This document shows, one piece after another, positions 25,906 to 61,747 of a DNA stretch of 64,000 nt. The stretch is taken from IMG/VR virus record IMGVR_UViG_3300042507_003741, positions 1 through 64,000 of that record; one strand, given 5' to 3'. The notes beneath the pieces were generated by a model. It was not told the origin of the DNA. It was given only the letters and a program-made list of their open reading frames with translations, and searched no databases. Source of the stretch: a virus. The position numbers were made by a program, and so were the translations under genes. Positions within the stretch are counted from its first letter, which is position 1. Each line of letters opens with the position of its first letter.

Positions 25906-26224
25906 GCTTCCCTCCTCGCTTCTTGGCCTTCTTGGCACGCTTGGCTGCCCGTTTCCTCTTGCCCGACTGAGGCTCGGCGGCCGGAGCCGACCAGCGGTTG
26001 CTGCAAATGGTCGCACTGCACTCCGGCTGCGGGTCTGCGGCAGGAGCCGGAAACATCTGCGACAGGCGTGCGTCCAGCCGCTGCGCCAGTTCGATCTCCA
26101 CCAGCAGGGCCGGCAGGATCGCCTTGCAAAACCGCACGGCCGTATCGGCGTCCAGCGTCCCCGCCTGTGCGTGAGCCGAGACGCCTTGAGCCAGCGAGAT
26201 GTAGCGTTCAGTGTCGGGTGTCAT
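25886..26224 (-). CDS. Hypothetical protein, basic C-terminus
   Basis: 112 residues starting MTPDTERYISLAQGVSAHAQ. The C-terminal third is Lys/Arg-rich (KRKRAAKRAKKAKKRGGK). It overlaps the helicase start by 20 bases. Between the annealing protein and the helicase. Function unknown, perhaps DNA-binding. Confidence 0.6.
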   Translation of the reverse strand: MTPDTERYISLAQGVSAHAQAGTLDADTAVRFCKAILPALLVEIELAQRLDARLSQMFPAPAADPQPECSATICSNRWSAPAAEPQSGKRKRAAKRAKKAKKRGGKHDDLPS

Positions 26225-58871: not shown

Positions 58872-58972
58872 TCGTCGTACGGGTAACCGTCCTCCGGGTC
58901 TTCGGTGTACGGGCCGGGCTCCGCGTCCTCATGGAACCAGGGGCGTACGTCGGGGTAGGTGGCTTGTGTCAC
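58868..58972 (-). CDS. 34-aa acidic peptide
   Basis: GTG start overlapping the upstream stop (GTGA) and stop overlapping the next ATG; residues include TYPDVRPWFHEDAEPGPYTE. Coupling on both sides supports a real gene. Function unknown. Confidence 0.5.
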   Translation of the reverse strand: MTQATYPDVRPWFHEDAEPGPYTEDPEDGYPYDE

Positions 58973-59295
58973 TTTTCGACAGTTTCCGTGCCATCGCTCG
59001 GCGGGGCCGGGAGCGGCATCCAGTTAGTGATCCCGAATGAATCCACATCGTCATCGTCCATGCCGCAGAACCGCCACATCACCCCGTCATGCGATGCCAT
59101 CTGAGCAAGGCGAATGTCTTTCGGAAACGCTCTTGTGACAGCCAAGACGGCGGCATGCACTTCCGGCAGCCGCTCCGTCACCGGAATCCAGCGCGGCACT
59201 TGCTCCTCCAACTCTTCGATCTCGGCGTGCATCCTCCGCTCCTCTGGCGTGCAGTCGCAGTTCATGGGCTTCTGGTCGCAGATCGGGCAATACAT
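58969..59295 (-). CDS. Zinc-knuckle plus DUF551 protein
   Basis: 108 residues. N-terminal CPICDQKPMNCDC metal site, a short coiled coil, then DUF551: PRWIPVTERLPEVHAAVLAV and ITNWMPLPAPP. GAGGAG precedes ATG. It lies just after the last attC-like site of the cassette array. Confidence 0.7.
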   Translation of the reverse strand: MYCPICDQKPMNCDCTPEERRMHAEIEELEEQVPRWIPVTERLPEVHAAVLAVTRAFPKDIRLAQMASHDGVMWRFCGMDDDDVDSFGITNWMPLPAPPSDGTETVEK

Positions 59296-59315: not shown

Positions 59316-59365
59316 ACAGAACCAAGCGATGCAGCGGACGAGACGCTGATCGCCAGCGTTCTCAC
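59316..59365 (-). repeat. attC-like site 1
   Basis: Minus-strand boxes TGAGAAC (start, contains the TGA of the upstream ORF) and GTTCTGT (end). Arms GCGATCAGCG and CGCTGCATCGC fold around CTCGTC. The 5-prime box is the reverse complement of site 2's 3-prime GTTCTCA. Downstream no matching ACAGAAC is seen, so the array ends here. Confidence 0.8.
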
Positions 59366-59592
59366 TCATCGACACTAACTGCGGCGCCTTCAACGGTCGG
59401 CTCATTGAGTTCATAGGCCGGAACATCAGCCTCCACCCACCGAATCTGTTTGTCGCCGTCGTTTCCTTCCATGCACTCATACGCAATGTTGGCGGCTTCG
59501 CGACCAGCGTTCTGCCAGCCGTTTGCGGAATAATTGCCATCCTCCGACACGCACACCGCTATGCGAACCCGAATCGTTTTTGCTTCGCTCAT
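59362..59592 (-). CDS. Cassette ORF C, 76 aa
   Basis: MSEAKTIRVRIAVCVSEDGN ..., with CAGGAG before ATG. Small alpha/beta protein (IRVRIAVCVSED, IAYECMEGNDGDKQIRWVEA). Stop TGA is inside the attC-like 5-prime box. Function unknown. Confidence 0.7.
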   Translation of the reverse strand: MSEAKTIRVRIAVCVSEDGNYSANGWQNAGREAANIAYECMEGNDGDKQIRWVEADVPAYELNEPTVEGAAVSVDE

Positions 59593-59610: not shown

Positions 59611-59660
59611 GTGAGAACCACGCGATGCAGCGGACGAGCCGCTGATCGCTGGCGTTATGC
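59611..59660 (-). repeat. attC-like site 2
   Basis: Minus-strand boxes GCATAAC (contains the upstream TAA stop) and GTTCTCA. The stem CAGCGG-CTCGT-CCGCTG continues with GCGAT/ATCGC, leaving one unpaired C, reminiscent of extrahelical bases in attC. Its 3-prime half (24 bases from GTCCGCTG) is identical to site 4. Confidence 0.85.
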
Positions 59661-59924
59661 GGTCGGGTACTTCTTCTGAAACTGCTCGTACGTCATCGCG
59701 TCCCCTTGGCCGCCGACGCCTGTTGCGATGAATGACCCGCGCGATACCCGGATGGATTTCACGCCCTTCAACTTCTTCCGGCCGGTGAACTCGCGGTATC
59801 TGATTGCTGACCAGCCCTTGCCTTGGCAGTGGATGCAGACCACAGCCTCCCCTTCGCCTTCGCACATGCCGCGATACAGGCCCGCCCCATGGCATTCGTC
59901 GCACTCACACTTGATGTCTGGCAT
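59655..59924 (-). CDS. Cassette ORF B: DnaJ-like CxxCxGxG zinc protein, 89 aa
   Basis: Two CxxC-x-G-x-G repeats: CDECHGAGLYRG and CIHCQGKGW, as in the DnaJ zinc domain, here alone without a J-domain. AGGAGG precedes ATG. The C-terminus (MTYEQFQKKYPTA) is helical. The TAA stop lies in the attC-like box. Possibly a small metal-binding protein. Confidence 0.75.
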   Translation of the reverse strand: MPDIKCECDECHGAGLYRGMCEGEGEAVVCIHCQGKGWSAIRYREFTGRKKLKGVKSIRVSRGSFIATGVGGQGDAMTYEQFQKKYPTA

Positions 59925-59941: not shown

Positions 59942-59999
59942 CCGCATAACCAGCGGATGAAGCGGACGGCGGGGCCGCCGCTGATCCTGCGTGTTCTCA
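59942..59999 (-). repeat. attC-like site 3
   Basis: Minus-strand boxes TGAGAAC (contains the upstream TGA) and GTTATGC. The stem is extended: CAGCGGCGG and its complement around CCCG, with arms AGGAT/ATCC. TGAGAAC is the reverse complement of site 4's GTTCTCA. Confidence 0.8.
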
Positions 60000-60269
60000 G
60001 CCCAGCCGTTGCAGTATCGATTCAACAGCCACCCTATGCGGCTCATACATGATCGTCGGAAGCATCCGACGGAGCGCCTCCCGCTCCGCGTCGGTGAGCG
60101 TGGGCTGCGGCTCGCGGTAGAGCGACTGCACTGCCATGTCGCCCGCAGCAACCATCTCTGCGTCAGGCCGGTGCAGAAAAAAGTCCGCGTGGTCAGTCCA
60201 CTCAACCATCCACGCCACCGGCTGAGAACCACGCGATGCAGCGGACATATCATCTACCTCGTCTGCCAT
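59997..60269 (-). CDS. Cassette ORF A: VAW-type/LTDAERE protein, 90 aa
   Basis: N-terminus MADEVDDMSAASRGSQ is encoded inside attC-like site 4; then VAWMVEWTDHADFFLHRPDA and a C-terminal module PTLTDAEREALRRMLP. VAW...LY...P motif recurs in 60795-61523. The RBS and ATG lie in the preceding cassette. Function unknown. Confidence 0.7.
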   Translation of the reverse strand: MADEVDDMSAASRGSQPVAWMVEWTDHADFFLHRPDAEMVAAGDMAVQSLYREPQPTLTDAEREALRRMLPTIMYEPHRVAVESILQRLG

Positions 60270-60311
60270 GGTTGCTCCTGTGTTCGATGCCGCTGATCGC
60301 TGGCGTTCTAA
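60223..60311 (-). repeat. attC-like site 4 with gene start in its loop
   Basis: Boxes TTAGAAC (contains the upstream TAG) and GTTCTCA. Between CAGCGG and CCGCTG the loop is lengthened by about 40 bases holding CAGGAGCAACCATGG, the ribosome binding site and start of ORF A. Length 89, still within the usual attC range. Confidence 0.8.
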
Positions 60312-60541
60312 TTGGTCCGCTCAAGCAGGCCGTCGATCACGGCGGCGACCTCCACACTGTCGGCAAACCGCCCCGCGAAGTAGTCTTCTCGCACTCGCCG
60401 CAGCACCTTCCTCAGCGACTCCCGCTCCTCGTCGGTGGGCCGCAGGCGTGCGACCTCCGCCTCTAACTGCTGCACTCGCTCCATCGCCTGGATTAGTGCA
60501 TCCAGATCGTCAGGCATCATCGGCGGCACAAGATCACTCAT
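60308..60541 (-). CDS. LTDEERE-family protein, 77 aa, upstream of site 4
   Basis: MSDLVPPMMPDDLDALIQAM then coiled coil (VQQLEAEVARLR) and the RPTDEERESLRKVL ... DGLLERTN module. AAAGGAG before ATG. The upstream boundary shows a weak resemblance to an attC 3-prime half (ATTGCGTGATTTCA), so this may be a decayed fourth cassette. Confidence 0.7.
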   Translation of the reverse strand: MSDLVPPMMPDDLDALIQAMERVQQLEAEVARLRPTDEERESLRKVLRRVREDYFAGRFADSVEVAAVIDGLLERTN

Positions 60542-60571
60542 GTCTGTCTCCTTTACGTTGAAATCACGCAA

Positions 60572-60802
60572 TCACTTCCTGTCGATCACCTTGCGTAGCG
60601 TGTCGGCATCCCGTCGCCGCTCGTCCCCCAGTTGCTCAAGCCTCTCGCGCAGAATGGAGTTCACGCCGCGCAGCCGCCATATCTCGTCTACCAGCGGATC
60701 GGCGCCGGTAGCCCAATGCAGCAGCCACGCCGATCCAATGAACGACGCCGGGATGAGTACGGCCAAGGAGAACCACGCATACCAAGGCATTTCGTTAGGC
60801 AT
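60572..60802 (-). CDS. Small membrane-anchored protein, paralogue B
   Basis: 76 residues, the complete copy of the gene at the window's left edge. MPNEMPWYAWFSLAVLIPAS and a charged coiled tail ending TLRKVIDRK. AAGGAG is absent, but the start overlaps the upstream gene. Function unknown. Confidence 0.75.
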   Translation of the reverse strand: MPNEMPWYAWFSLAVLIPASFIGSAWLLHWATGADPLVDEIWRLRGVNSILRERLEQLGDERRRDADTLRKVIDRK

Positions 60803-61523
60803 TTGTTGTCCTCTCCAGAAGGCCGTCCAGCACCGCCGCTATCTCGTCGCACGCCACATCGCCAACGTCGGCGTAGGCGTCGCGTACTTCACGCAGGACG
60901 AATCGCTCCGCGTCGGTCAGCGTGAACGGCGTCAGCGAGCAGTGAAGCGTAGTGCGGCCAACAACGTGGGGGCAGGTCTGCGGGGTGCGGTAGAGCGGGA
61001 CGACCTCCCCGTCGTTTTCGTCCGCTGCCGCGTCGGCGTGTTCGCGGTGCAGCGAAACCATCTGCCATTCGTCGGAGTGTGCCAGCCACGCCACCGGATC
61101 CTGTGTATTGTGCCCCCGCCCACCCGCCGCCTCGCCGGTGCCGGGCCGCGTAACGTCTAGGGGCCGCCCCTCGCCGCTTCCATCGCTGGAGGCCGGTGGC
61201 TGCGCTATCGCAGGCGAGGAGCCATCTGTCTCCACGCATGGTGGAGCAGTCTGATTGCCGGTGCCCAACACGGGTCGCGTCACGGGTTTATCAGTCCCGC
61301 CGCTGCCGCGTCCTTCAGACGCATGAACGCCTGTTGGCAACTGGACTCTCGCCGCCGGCGCGGCGTCATGTTCGGTTCGCTCCCGCTCGCGGAGCATGGC
61401 GTCGGCCCAGCGGTAGGCAGCCGTGAGTAGGTGTTCCCACTGCAATGCAGTTGGGTACTGATTGGCCTCGTCTGACAGCAGCCCGGTCAGGGCCGCAGCG
61501 GCGAAGTGGTCACGGTCTGTCAT
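60795..61523 (-). CDS. VAW-type/LTDAER-family protein, 242 aa
   Basis: Helical N-terminus (residues 1-55), a disordered Ser/Gly/Pro linker (60-145), then PVAWLAHSDEWQMVSLHREH with VVPLYRTPQ, and finally FTLTDAERFVLREVRDAYAD ... GLLERT. So it joins two modules found separately in smaller proteins nearby. Function unknown. Confidence 0.65.
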   Translation of the reverse strand: MTDRDHFAAAALTGLLSDEANQYPTALQWEHLLTAAYRWADAMLRERERTEHDAAPAARVQLPTGVHASEGRGSGGTDKPVTRPVLGTGNQTAPPCVETDGSSPAIAQPPASSDGSGEGRPLDVTRPGTGEAAGGRGHNTQDPVAWLAHSDEWQMVSLHREHADAAADENDGEVVPLYRTPQTCPHVVGRTTLHCSLTPFTLTDAERFVLREVRDAYADVGDVACDEIAAVLDGLLERTTNA

Positions 61524-61747
61524 GTCTTGTCCTCCTCGTTGGCCCACAGCATTGCGGCCTTCTCGTCCCAGCAGTCAGCCCGTCCCATGTCGAACCAGTG
61601 CGGGAAATGTCGCAGCACAGCCCGCGCCTCTTGGCGAACCTCCGTGCGGATCCCCTTGATGCCGCCCTCCACATAGACGTTGGAGAGCCGCACCAGGAAG
61701 TCGCGGGCACGGAGGACCGCTAGCGTTCGTTCACACGGGAGGGTCAT
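61520..61747 (-). CDS. BPSL0761-like small protein
   Basis: 75 residues starting MTLPCERTLAVLRARDFLVR and containing IRTEVRQEARAVLRHFPHWF. The ERT-AVL-RDFL and R-x-EAR-LLRHFP pattern is that of a short bacterial and phage family of unknown function (BPSL0761-like, from memory). Confidence 0.65.
   Translation of the reverse strand: MTLPCERTLAVLRARDFLVRLSNVYVEGGIKGIRTEVRQEARAVLRHFPHWFDMGRADCWDEKAAMLWANEEDKT

Follow-up and report, generated by a model that had tools for sequence, protein, structure and literature searches.

The window analysed here is a 64-kb stretch of DNA out of an 81.6-kb virus record (G000) that encodes a portal protein, a major head protein and a helicase. Four attC sites (s1–s4) are packed within 1 kb of it (59.3–60.3 kb) in a single shared orientation, and all genes surrounding this interval are carried by the minus strand (Table 1). 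With at least two attC sites and no intI nearby, the array has the makeup of a CALIN. It does not amount to a complete integron (intI plus attI), since no match to an integron integrase was obtained in the 81.6-kb record, itself possibly incomplete, and intI was likewise not found in 20 related viral records.

Table 1 Features of the attC array and of the ORF A cassette (positions in the window).
Feature	Position	Strand	Basis or remark
attC s1, short loop	59316–59364	+	bacterial attC covariance model, E 9.6e-13
Antisense gene, cassette s1–s2, own start	59362–59592	-	sequence and ORF list; TGA stop in s1 R' box
attC s2, short loop	59612–59660	+	bacterial attC covariance model, E 2.2e-15
Antisense gene, cassette s2–s3, own start	59655–59924	-	sequence and ORF list; TAA stop in s2 R' box
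attC s3, short loop	59944–59999	+	bacterial attC covariance model, E 1.2e-6
Gene cassette, attC convention (G|TT to G|TT)	59994–60305	+	ORF A antisense plus its own attC s4
ORF A, 90 aa, 'VAW..LYR.PQPTLTDAERE' phage family	59997–60269	-	TGA stop (59999–59997) in s3 R' box
attC s4, top strand = +	60223–60311	+	bacterial attC covariance model, E 4.3e-15
s4 R'' TGAGAAC	60223–60229		AAC at 60227–60229
N-terminal tag MADEVDDMSAASRGS, attC-encoded	60225–60269	-	translation; sister tags on 15 unrelated families (among the matches listed)
s4 left (L'') arm GCGATGCAGCGGAC	60233–60246		with extrahelical G
s4 terminal loop, 44 nt	60247–60290
ORF A start codon ATG, within s4 loop	60267–60269	-
Shine-Dalgarno AGGAG in s4 loop, 5 nt upstream of ATG	60275–60279	-	motif and spacing recur in many viral sites with a tag
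s4 right (L') arm CGCTGATCGC	starts 60291
s4 R' GTTCTAA	60305–60311		GTT at 60305–60307
ORF B, precedes ORF A in transcription order	60308–60571	-	TAG stop within s4 R' box

In a typical cassette the gene has the same orientation as its attC, whereas all three cassette genes of the window are antisense. The antisense stops of these three genes and of ORF B each fall inside the R' box on the left of the gene (59358–59364, 59654–59660, 59993–59999 and 60305–60311, with TGA, TAA, TGA and TAG, respectively). The first-pass annotation of this DNA had held that ordinary cassettes carry their own start, and this is true of the s1–s2 and s2–s3 cassettes, whose genes start about 24 nt ahead of R''. For the s1 cassette, a search for a boundary on the left (GTTCTGTG..) found none. 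Neither ORF A nor ORF B has a match in Pfam or PHROGs; among known phage records ORF A has no relative and s4 has only chance-level matches, and s4 has none in plasmids. The genes at 60308–60571, 60795–61547 and 59997–60269 have patterns in common (PVAW.., ..L(T/P)(D)AER.., LL.ER(T)) and are likely, judged by these patterns, to be mosaic paralogues of one phage family. Placement of the phage by a terminase search gave weak Arthrobacter phage matches only and was not used for the host.

Identity and polarity of the attC sites

A covariance model trained on 45 bacterial chromosomal attC sites only finds s1–s4 exactly, on the plus strand of the 81.6-kb record (E 1e-6 to 2e-15), and elsewhere returns just two weak matches, of 16.9 and 12.1 bits. 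The 16.9-bit match, at 25976–26099 on the minus strand, lies far from the array and could be a chance hit or a site that has decayed. Site s4 itself has an R'' ending in AAC, an R' beginning with GTT, an imperfect palindrome and an extrahelical base on the L'' side. The ORF A cassette, cut at 59993/59994 and 60305/60306, has ends (GTTCTCAGCC and GGCTGAGAAC) that agree over 10 bp of R'/R'', the boundary complementarity expected of attC. More broadly, R'/R'' flanks of adjacent sites match over at least 7 bp in 111 of 176 pairs among the matches listed, against about 26 after shuffling. An attC-like site with a lengthened loop, as the first-pass annotation described 60223–60311, is thus upheld (E 4e-15, 44-nt loop), and by its sequence features we take it that the site is a true attC.

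These observations bear on whether the hairpins could instead be non-integron intergenic repeats serving homologous recombination or RNA control. They do lie amid small mosaic genes, in a phage without intI in its 81.6-kb record, and the R' boxes depart from the GTTRRRY consensus (GTTCTAA in s4, GTTCTCA in s1 and s3), to which only the GTT core conforms. However, R' is often GTTCGGC in the planctomycete host sites described below too, so the off-consensus box reads as a family variant and not as an exclusion. The cassette-wise R'/R'' matching, the match of the sites to host attC arrays adjoining intI and the presence of viral-type cassettes at attI in a host integron all speak against such repeats, which we consider very improbable.

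Comparison of the s4 arms (GCGAT-G-CAGCGG vs CCGCTG-ATCGC) places an extrahelical G in the left arm, and hence L'' on the left in the plus orientation. Host genomes that carry this attC family have attC and intI co-oriented, with the array 3' of intI. Taken together, these two points make plus the attC top strand, with the phage genes antisense, and it follows that the cassette ending in s4 is 59994–60305, with all of ORF A inside. The proposal that the next cassette takes its start codon from s4 is not supported as regards the word 'next', as the site's own cassette already holds the whole of ORF A.

Predicted translation signals in the s4 loop and in related viral sites

Read on the minus strand, the s4 loop is GCATCGAACACAGGAGCAACCATGGCAGACGAGGTAGATGATAT and contains AGGAG-CAACC-ATG. 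That the site supplies a start codon for ORF A, as previously suggested, is supported by the loop sequence; the open frame from this ATG crosses the arm into ORF A and would place the tag at the head of the predicted protein. The ATG lies 38 nt from the stop of ORF B. Such sites are not confined to this phage. Pattern scans of IMG/VR, which required exact arms and returned viral loci on uncultivated contigs, gave at least 361 sites at a minimum of 184 loci, always in a single orientation within each locus; more than 100 other viral DNA pieces have sites of the s4 kind, many joined to unrelated genes. Among the matches listed, viral loop lengths fall into tight classes (4–6, 10–11 and 42–46 nt), and an antisense ATG is present in the loop of 104 of 158 distinct long-loop viral sites. 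A Shine-Dalgarno motif, an ATG and an ORF crossing the arm by at least 20 codons occur together in 72 of these 158 sites, compared with 2 of 60 bacterial long-loop sites (again among the matches listed) and with an average of 4.2 of 158 (maximum 9 in 50 repeats) when the loops are shuffled.

Several lineages of tag can be distinguished among the matches listed, ..DEVDEM-SAASRGS (tag A), MPKDDATL-SAASVGS, MTHDVAGP-SVASAGS and MTNDNEEP-SAASAGS, and two lineages read another arm frame (MNKPTDALAGPLHRVVS and MSSDVDASPLHPVVS). By blastp, the 71 tagged proteins listed group into 36 families; four of the 71 have mis-picked ATGs ('tags' of the type MRCPLHRVV/MICPLHRVV) and were removed from later counts. 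The check put forward in the first-pass annotation, a search for the same tag on other cassettes, is strongly positive: among the matches listed, tag A by itself stands at the head of 15 unrelated protein families, with more headed by other lineages. At the far end of the tagged cassettes listed, the stop lies within the R' box in 21 of 41 and no more than 10 nt from it in 28 of 41, a statistic limited to tagged genes because its all-cassette version is noisy, wrong frames being open in G+C-rich DNA. Read antisense, R' is TGAGAAC in 57 of 149 viral and 0 of 28 bacterial cassettes among the matches listed.

Loops of the viral long-loop class GCTCGCGACCGCTGACGAAACTAC... (for example at L121, L149 and L160), which lack a start codon, keep the bacterial TCGCGA..TCGCGA inner stem, and this stem is lost in the start-bearing loops of tag lineage A. 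At locus L116, attC-like sites near 361 and 1350 with a 60-nt loop carry antisense starts too (MSEPTSKQPDQNAEQPSAASDGS) and are perhaps a separate viral lineage reaching the same design. Tagged DNA methyltransferases of the C5 or N6/N4 type occur at L071, L078, L135, L136, L138, L166, L197, L198 and L206; that many tagged genes encode such enzymes suggests that the arrays could serve as a store of anti-restriction genes.

The open frame across the arm could be incidental if translation were to begin within the body of the cassette gene, leaving the loop ATG unused. The bodies of the tagged genes have a third-codon-position excess in the tag frame (532 vs 262 and 202), indicating that the frame opened by the loop ATG is the coding frame. 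Within the tag itself there is no such bias (24 vs 17 and 28), and protein-level selection on the tag, tested in this way, was not found, so that its residues look dispensable; a tag not conserved as protein is what an unused start would leave. A Met no more than five residues past the tag is present in 11 of 67 tagged genes, in some directly past it, but 52 of the 67 have none within the first 15 residues, and several tagged proteins have catalytic motifs upstream of any inner Met. In the tagged C5 methyltransferase of L135, the PF00145 match starts at residue 19 (profile position 2), no ATG, GTG or TTG occurs between the loop ATG and codon 39, and no in-frame start other than the loop ATG precedes motif I; the first alternative start is at codon 39 in L136 and at codon 41 in L162. 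Together with the rarity of the combined signals in bacterial and shuffled loops, this makes an incidental frame quite improbable as the general explanation. ORF A has inner ATGs at codon 21, with a poor Shine-Dalgarno motif, and at codon 8, with a Shine-Dalgarno-like stretch, and, taking this gene by itself, initiation at codon 21 is possible.

Predicted folding of 67 tagged sites gives a mean unpaired probability of 0.70 for the ATG and 0.68 for the Shine-Dalgarno motif, with the 3' arm paired at 0.83; for the window site with longer mRNA flanks, an alternative predicted fold pairs part of the ATG. We infer from the sequence that translation begins at the s4 loop ATG, and from the folding predictions that the attC RNA would adopt its hairpin in vivo.

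Probable movement of the tag with its gene and possible exchange with planctomycete hosts

If the loop is a translational entry point, as the first-pass annotation proposed, a resident start-bearing site would stay in place and incoming cassettes would gain its tag. That the same tags stand on many genes without relation to each other (tag A on 15 families among the matches listed) could be read in this way. Linkage tells against it. For loci that have only the gene-start side in common, at ≥95% identity, 73% of core pairs are >0.9 similar, compared with 29% similar when the gene-end side is common and 15% for random pairs; the pairs are not independent of each other, but these figures, like a comparison under looser limits, indicate that the core accompanies the gene whose start it holds. 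About one fifth of gene-start pairs differ in core length, against this rule. In addition, at nine listed pairs with ≥97% identity the core type changes exactly at AAC, so that genes at 97–100% DNA identity stand behind different cores (for example L037/L179, from a tagged core to a core without ATG, L023/L200 and L015/L199). The relatives of ORF A have three different N-termini, with the tag MSDENERSVASAGS in L335 and a start at MNTDNTQPVAW without an attC arm in L332. In L332, L336, L338 and L340 the ORF A relatives start behind GGATCAGGAGCGGCGA-ATG, an attC-like arm, with the Shine-Dalgarno motif in the stem and not in the loop.

Such core swaps would be explained by recombination of the other strand at R''. 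In the study of Qi et al. (PMC9892861), recombination of top strands is reported to be less frequent than that of bottom strands. Polarity, linkage and the attI-joined planctomycete cassette described next all point to s4 being part of ORF A's own cassette, which means that the tag moves with its gene and that receiving new cassettes is not the main role of the site. Of the entry-point proposal, what stands is that the site supplies the Shine-Dalgarno motif and the start and that some cores do swap at AAC; what does not stand is a core free of its gene, as it is mostly linked to it (73% vs 29%). We thus regard a resident tag as unlikely, and the joining of a new gene to an old tag by core swap as possible but secondary.

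Arrays of the same attC family are present in Planctomycetota genomes, and IntI scores over the curated cut-off in 8 of 10 planctomycete-type genomes with this family. Judged by the attC family alone, the hosts of the phage are most likely Planctomycetota, and since the same family adjoins IntI in host genomes, we infer that IntI acts on the phage sites. The orientation of cassette genes differs between the two settings: in clear cases, with genes called as longest ORFs in G+C-rich DNA, bacterial cassettes have 16 sense vs 2 antisense genes and viral cassettes 71 antisense vs 8 sense. The genes flanking viral arrays are also mostly antisense to attC (45 loci above 80% and one below 20%, by crude ORF calls). 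In L241/L329 (JAIXPT010000147.1, a Planctomycetaceae MAG), which has IntI, the first cassette at attI, beside intI, holds an antisense DUF551 gene of the phage kind, whose protein resembles window positions 58969–59295, with a viral-type attC on its far side, and a second viral-type cassette is next. It seems that phage cassettes were captured here at the attI of a host, and the arrangement places the core at the gene-start side, in the same cassette, as does the host attC polarity. A neighbouring gene is presumably an EttA-type ATPase by the look of its sequence, so the locus seems chromosomal; the contig is short and could be misassembled.

Considering all of the above, we think it highly probable that 59.3–60.3 kb is a CALIN of a tailed phage with antisense cassettes, in which s4 doubles as a set of translation signals and the tag travels with the gene. 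The sequence evidence for this reading comprises attC identity, polarity, the start/stop architecture, the spread of the sites, the host IntI integrons and the viral-type cassettes beside host intI. In these phage-adapted cassettes the gene is antisense to attC and so co-directional with the phage genes. The s4 hairpin loop contains the Shine-Dalgarno motif and the ATG, the 3' arm encodes most of the 14–15-residue tag, and R' at the cassette's far end provides the stop (TGA of TGAGAAC). In the mRNA, attC would fold with both signals largely in the apical loop, where the ribosome may assemble before opening the arm as it translates it. With the upstream gene ending in R' about 38 nt before the ATG, any neighbouring cassettes would be spaced alike, and translation of their genes is possibly coupled. 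Host IntI would presumably recombine at G|TT, moving the tag with its gene.

Clusters of attC in phages and their recombination by IntI1 are already known (PMC9892861). The phage CALINs of Qi et al. (2023, PMC9892861) resemble ours in being attC arrays without integrase in virulent phages, but the TJE1 and PH101 arrays are characterized there as typical and their cassettes as co-directional, genes antisense to attC with a start in its loop and a stop in R' are not described, and the main text makes no mention of planctomycetes. The sedentary chromosomal integrons of Planctomycetota have the same arms, extrahelical base and 43–44-nt loop, with IntI in the host genomes; unlike in the phages, their loops are mostly non-coding and their genes sense to attC. 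In class 1 integrons, short ORFs at attI1 (ORF-11) or in attC aid translation and GTTRRRY supplies a stop (PMC8876359), and here too a recombination site carries a translation start and a box a stop. There, however, a separate short ORF re-initiates into a sense cassette (PMC8876359), whereas in s4 the start lies within the attC loop on the opposite strand and leads in frame into the gene of that same cassette. Fused cassettes (blaGES-1/aacA4; PMC4670013, PMC8876359) likewise use the start signal of a neighbouring cassette; they arise through attC loss, whereas in the phage attC is intact and itself encodes the N-terminus. In the literature searched, we found no account of an attC loop in which an antisense cassette gene has its start codon, nor of a phage cassette class whose attC supplies the start and often the stop.

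A broader proposition, for and against which we would lean equally, is that these are a widespread class of phage-adapted cassettes, in which attC is an expression unit (loop start, R' stop) whose antisense gene would be silent behind the host integron promoter but expressed in a phage operon, and in which core exchange at R'' gives unrelated genes ready-made starts. On the main reading, integron cassettes have been remodelled for phage life, with the recombination site taking over the translation start and often the stop, and any order of the array should give evenly spaced, translatable genes. The viral-type cassettes next to planctomycete intI are consistent with phage–host exchange, and the tagged DNA methyltransferases suggest that the arrays may act as a shuffling store of defence-evasion genes. 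The open problem of how a gene is joined to an attC also gains a natural system, in which one start-bearing attC stands before many genes of unrelated families, and core exchange at R'' would, if true, be one route to cassette genesis.
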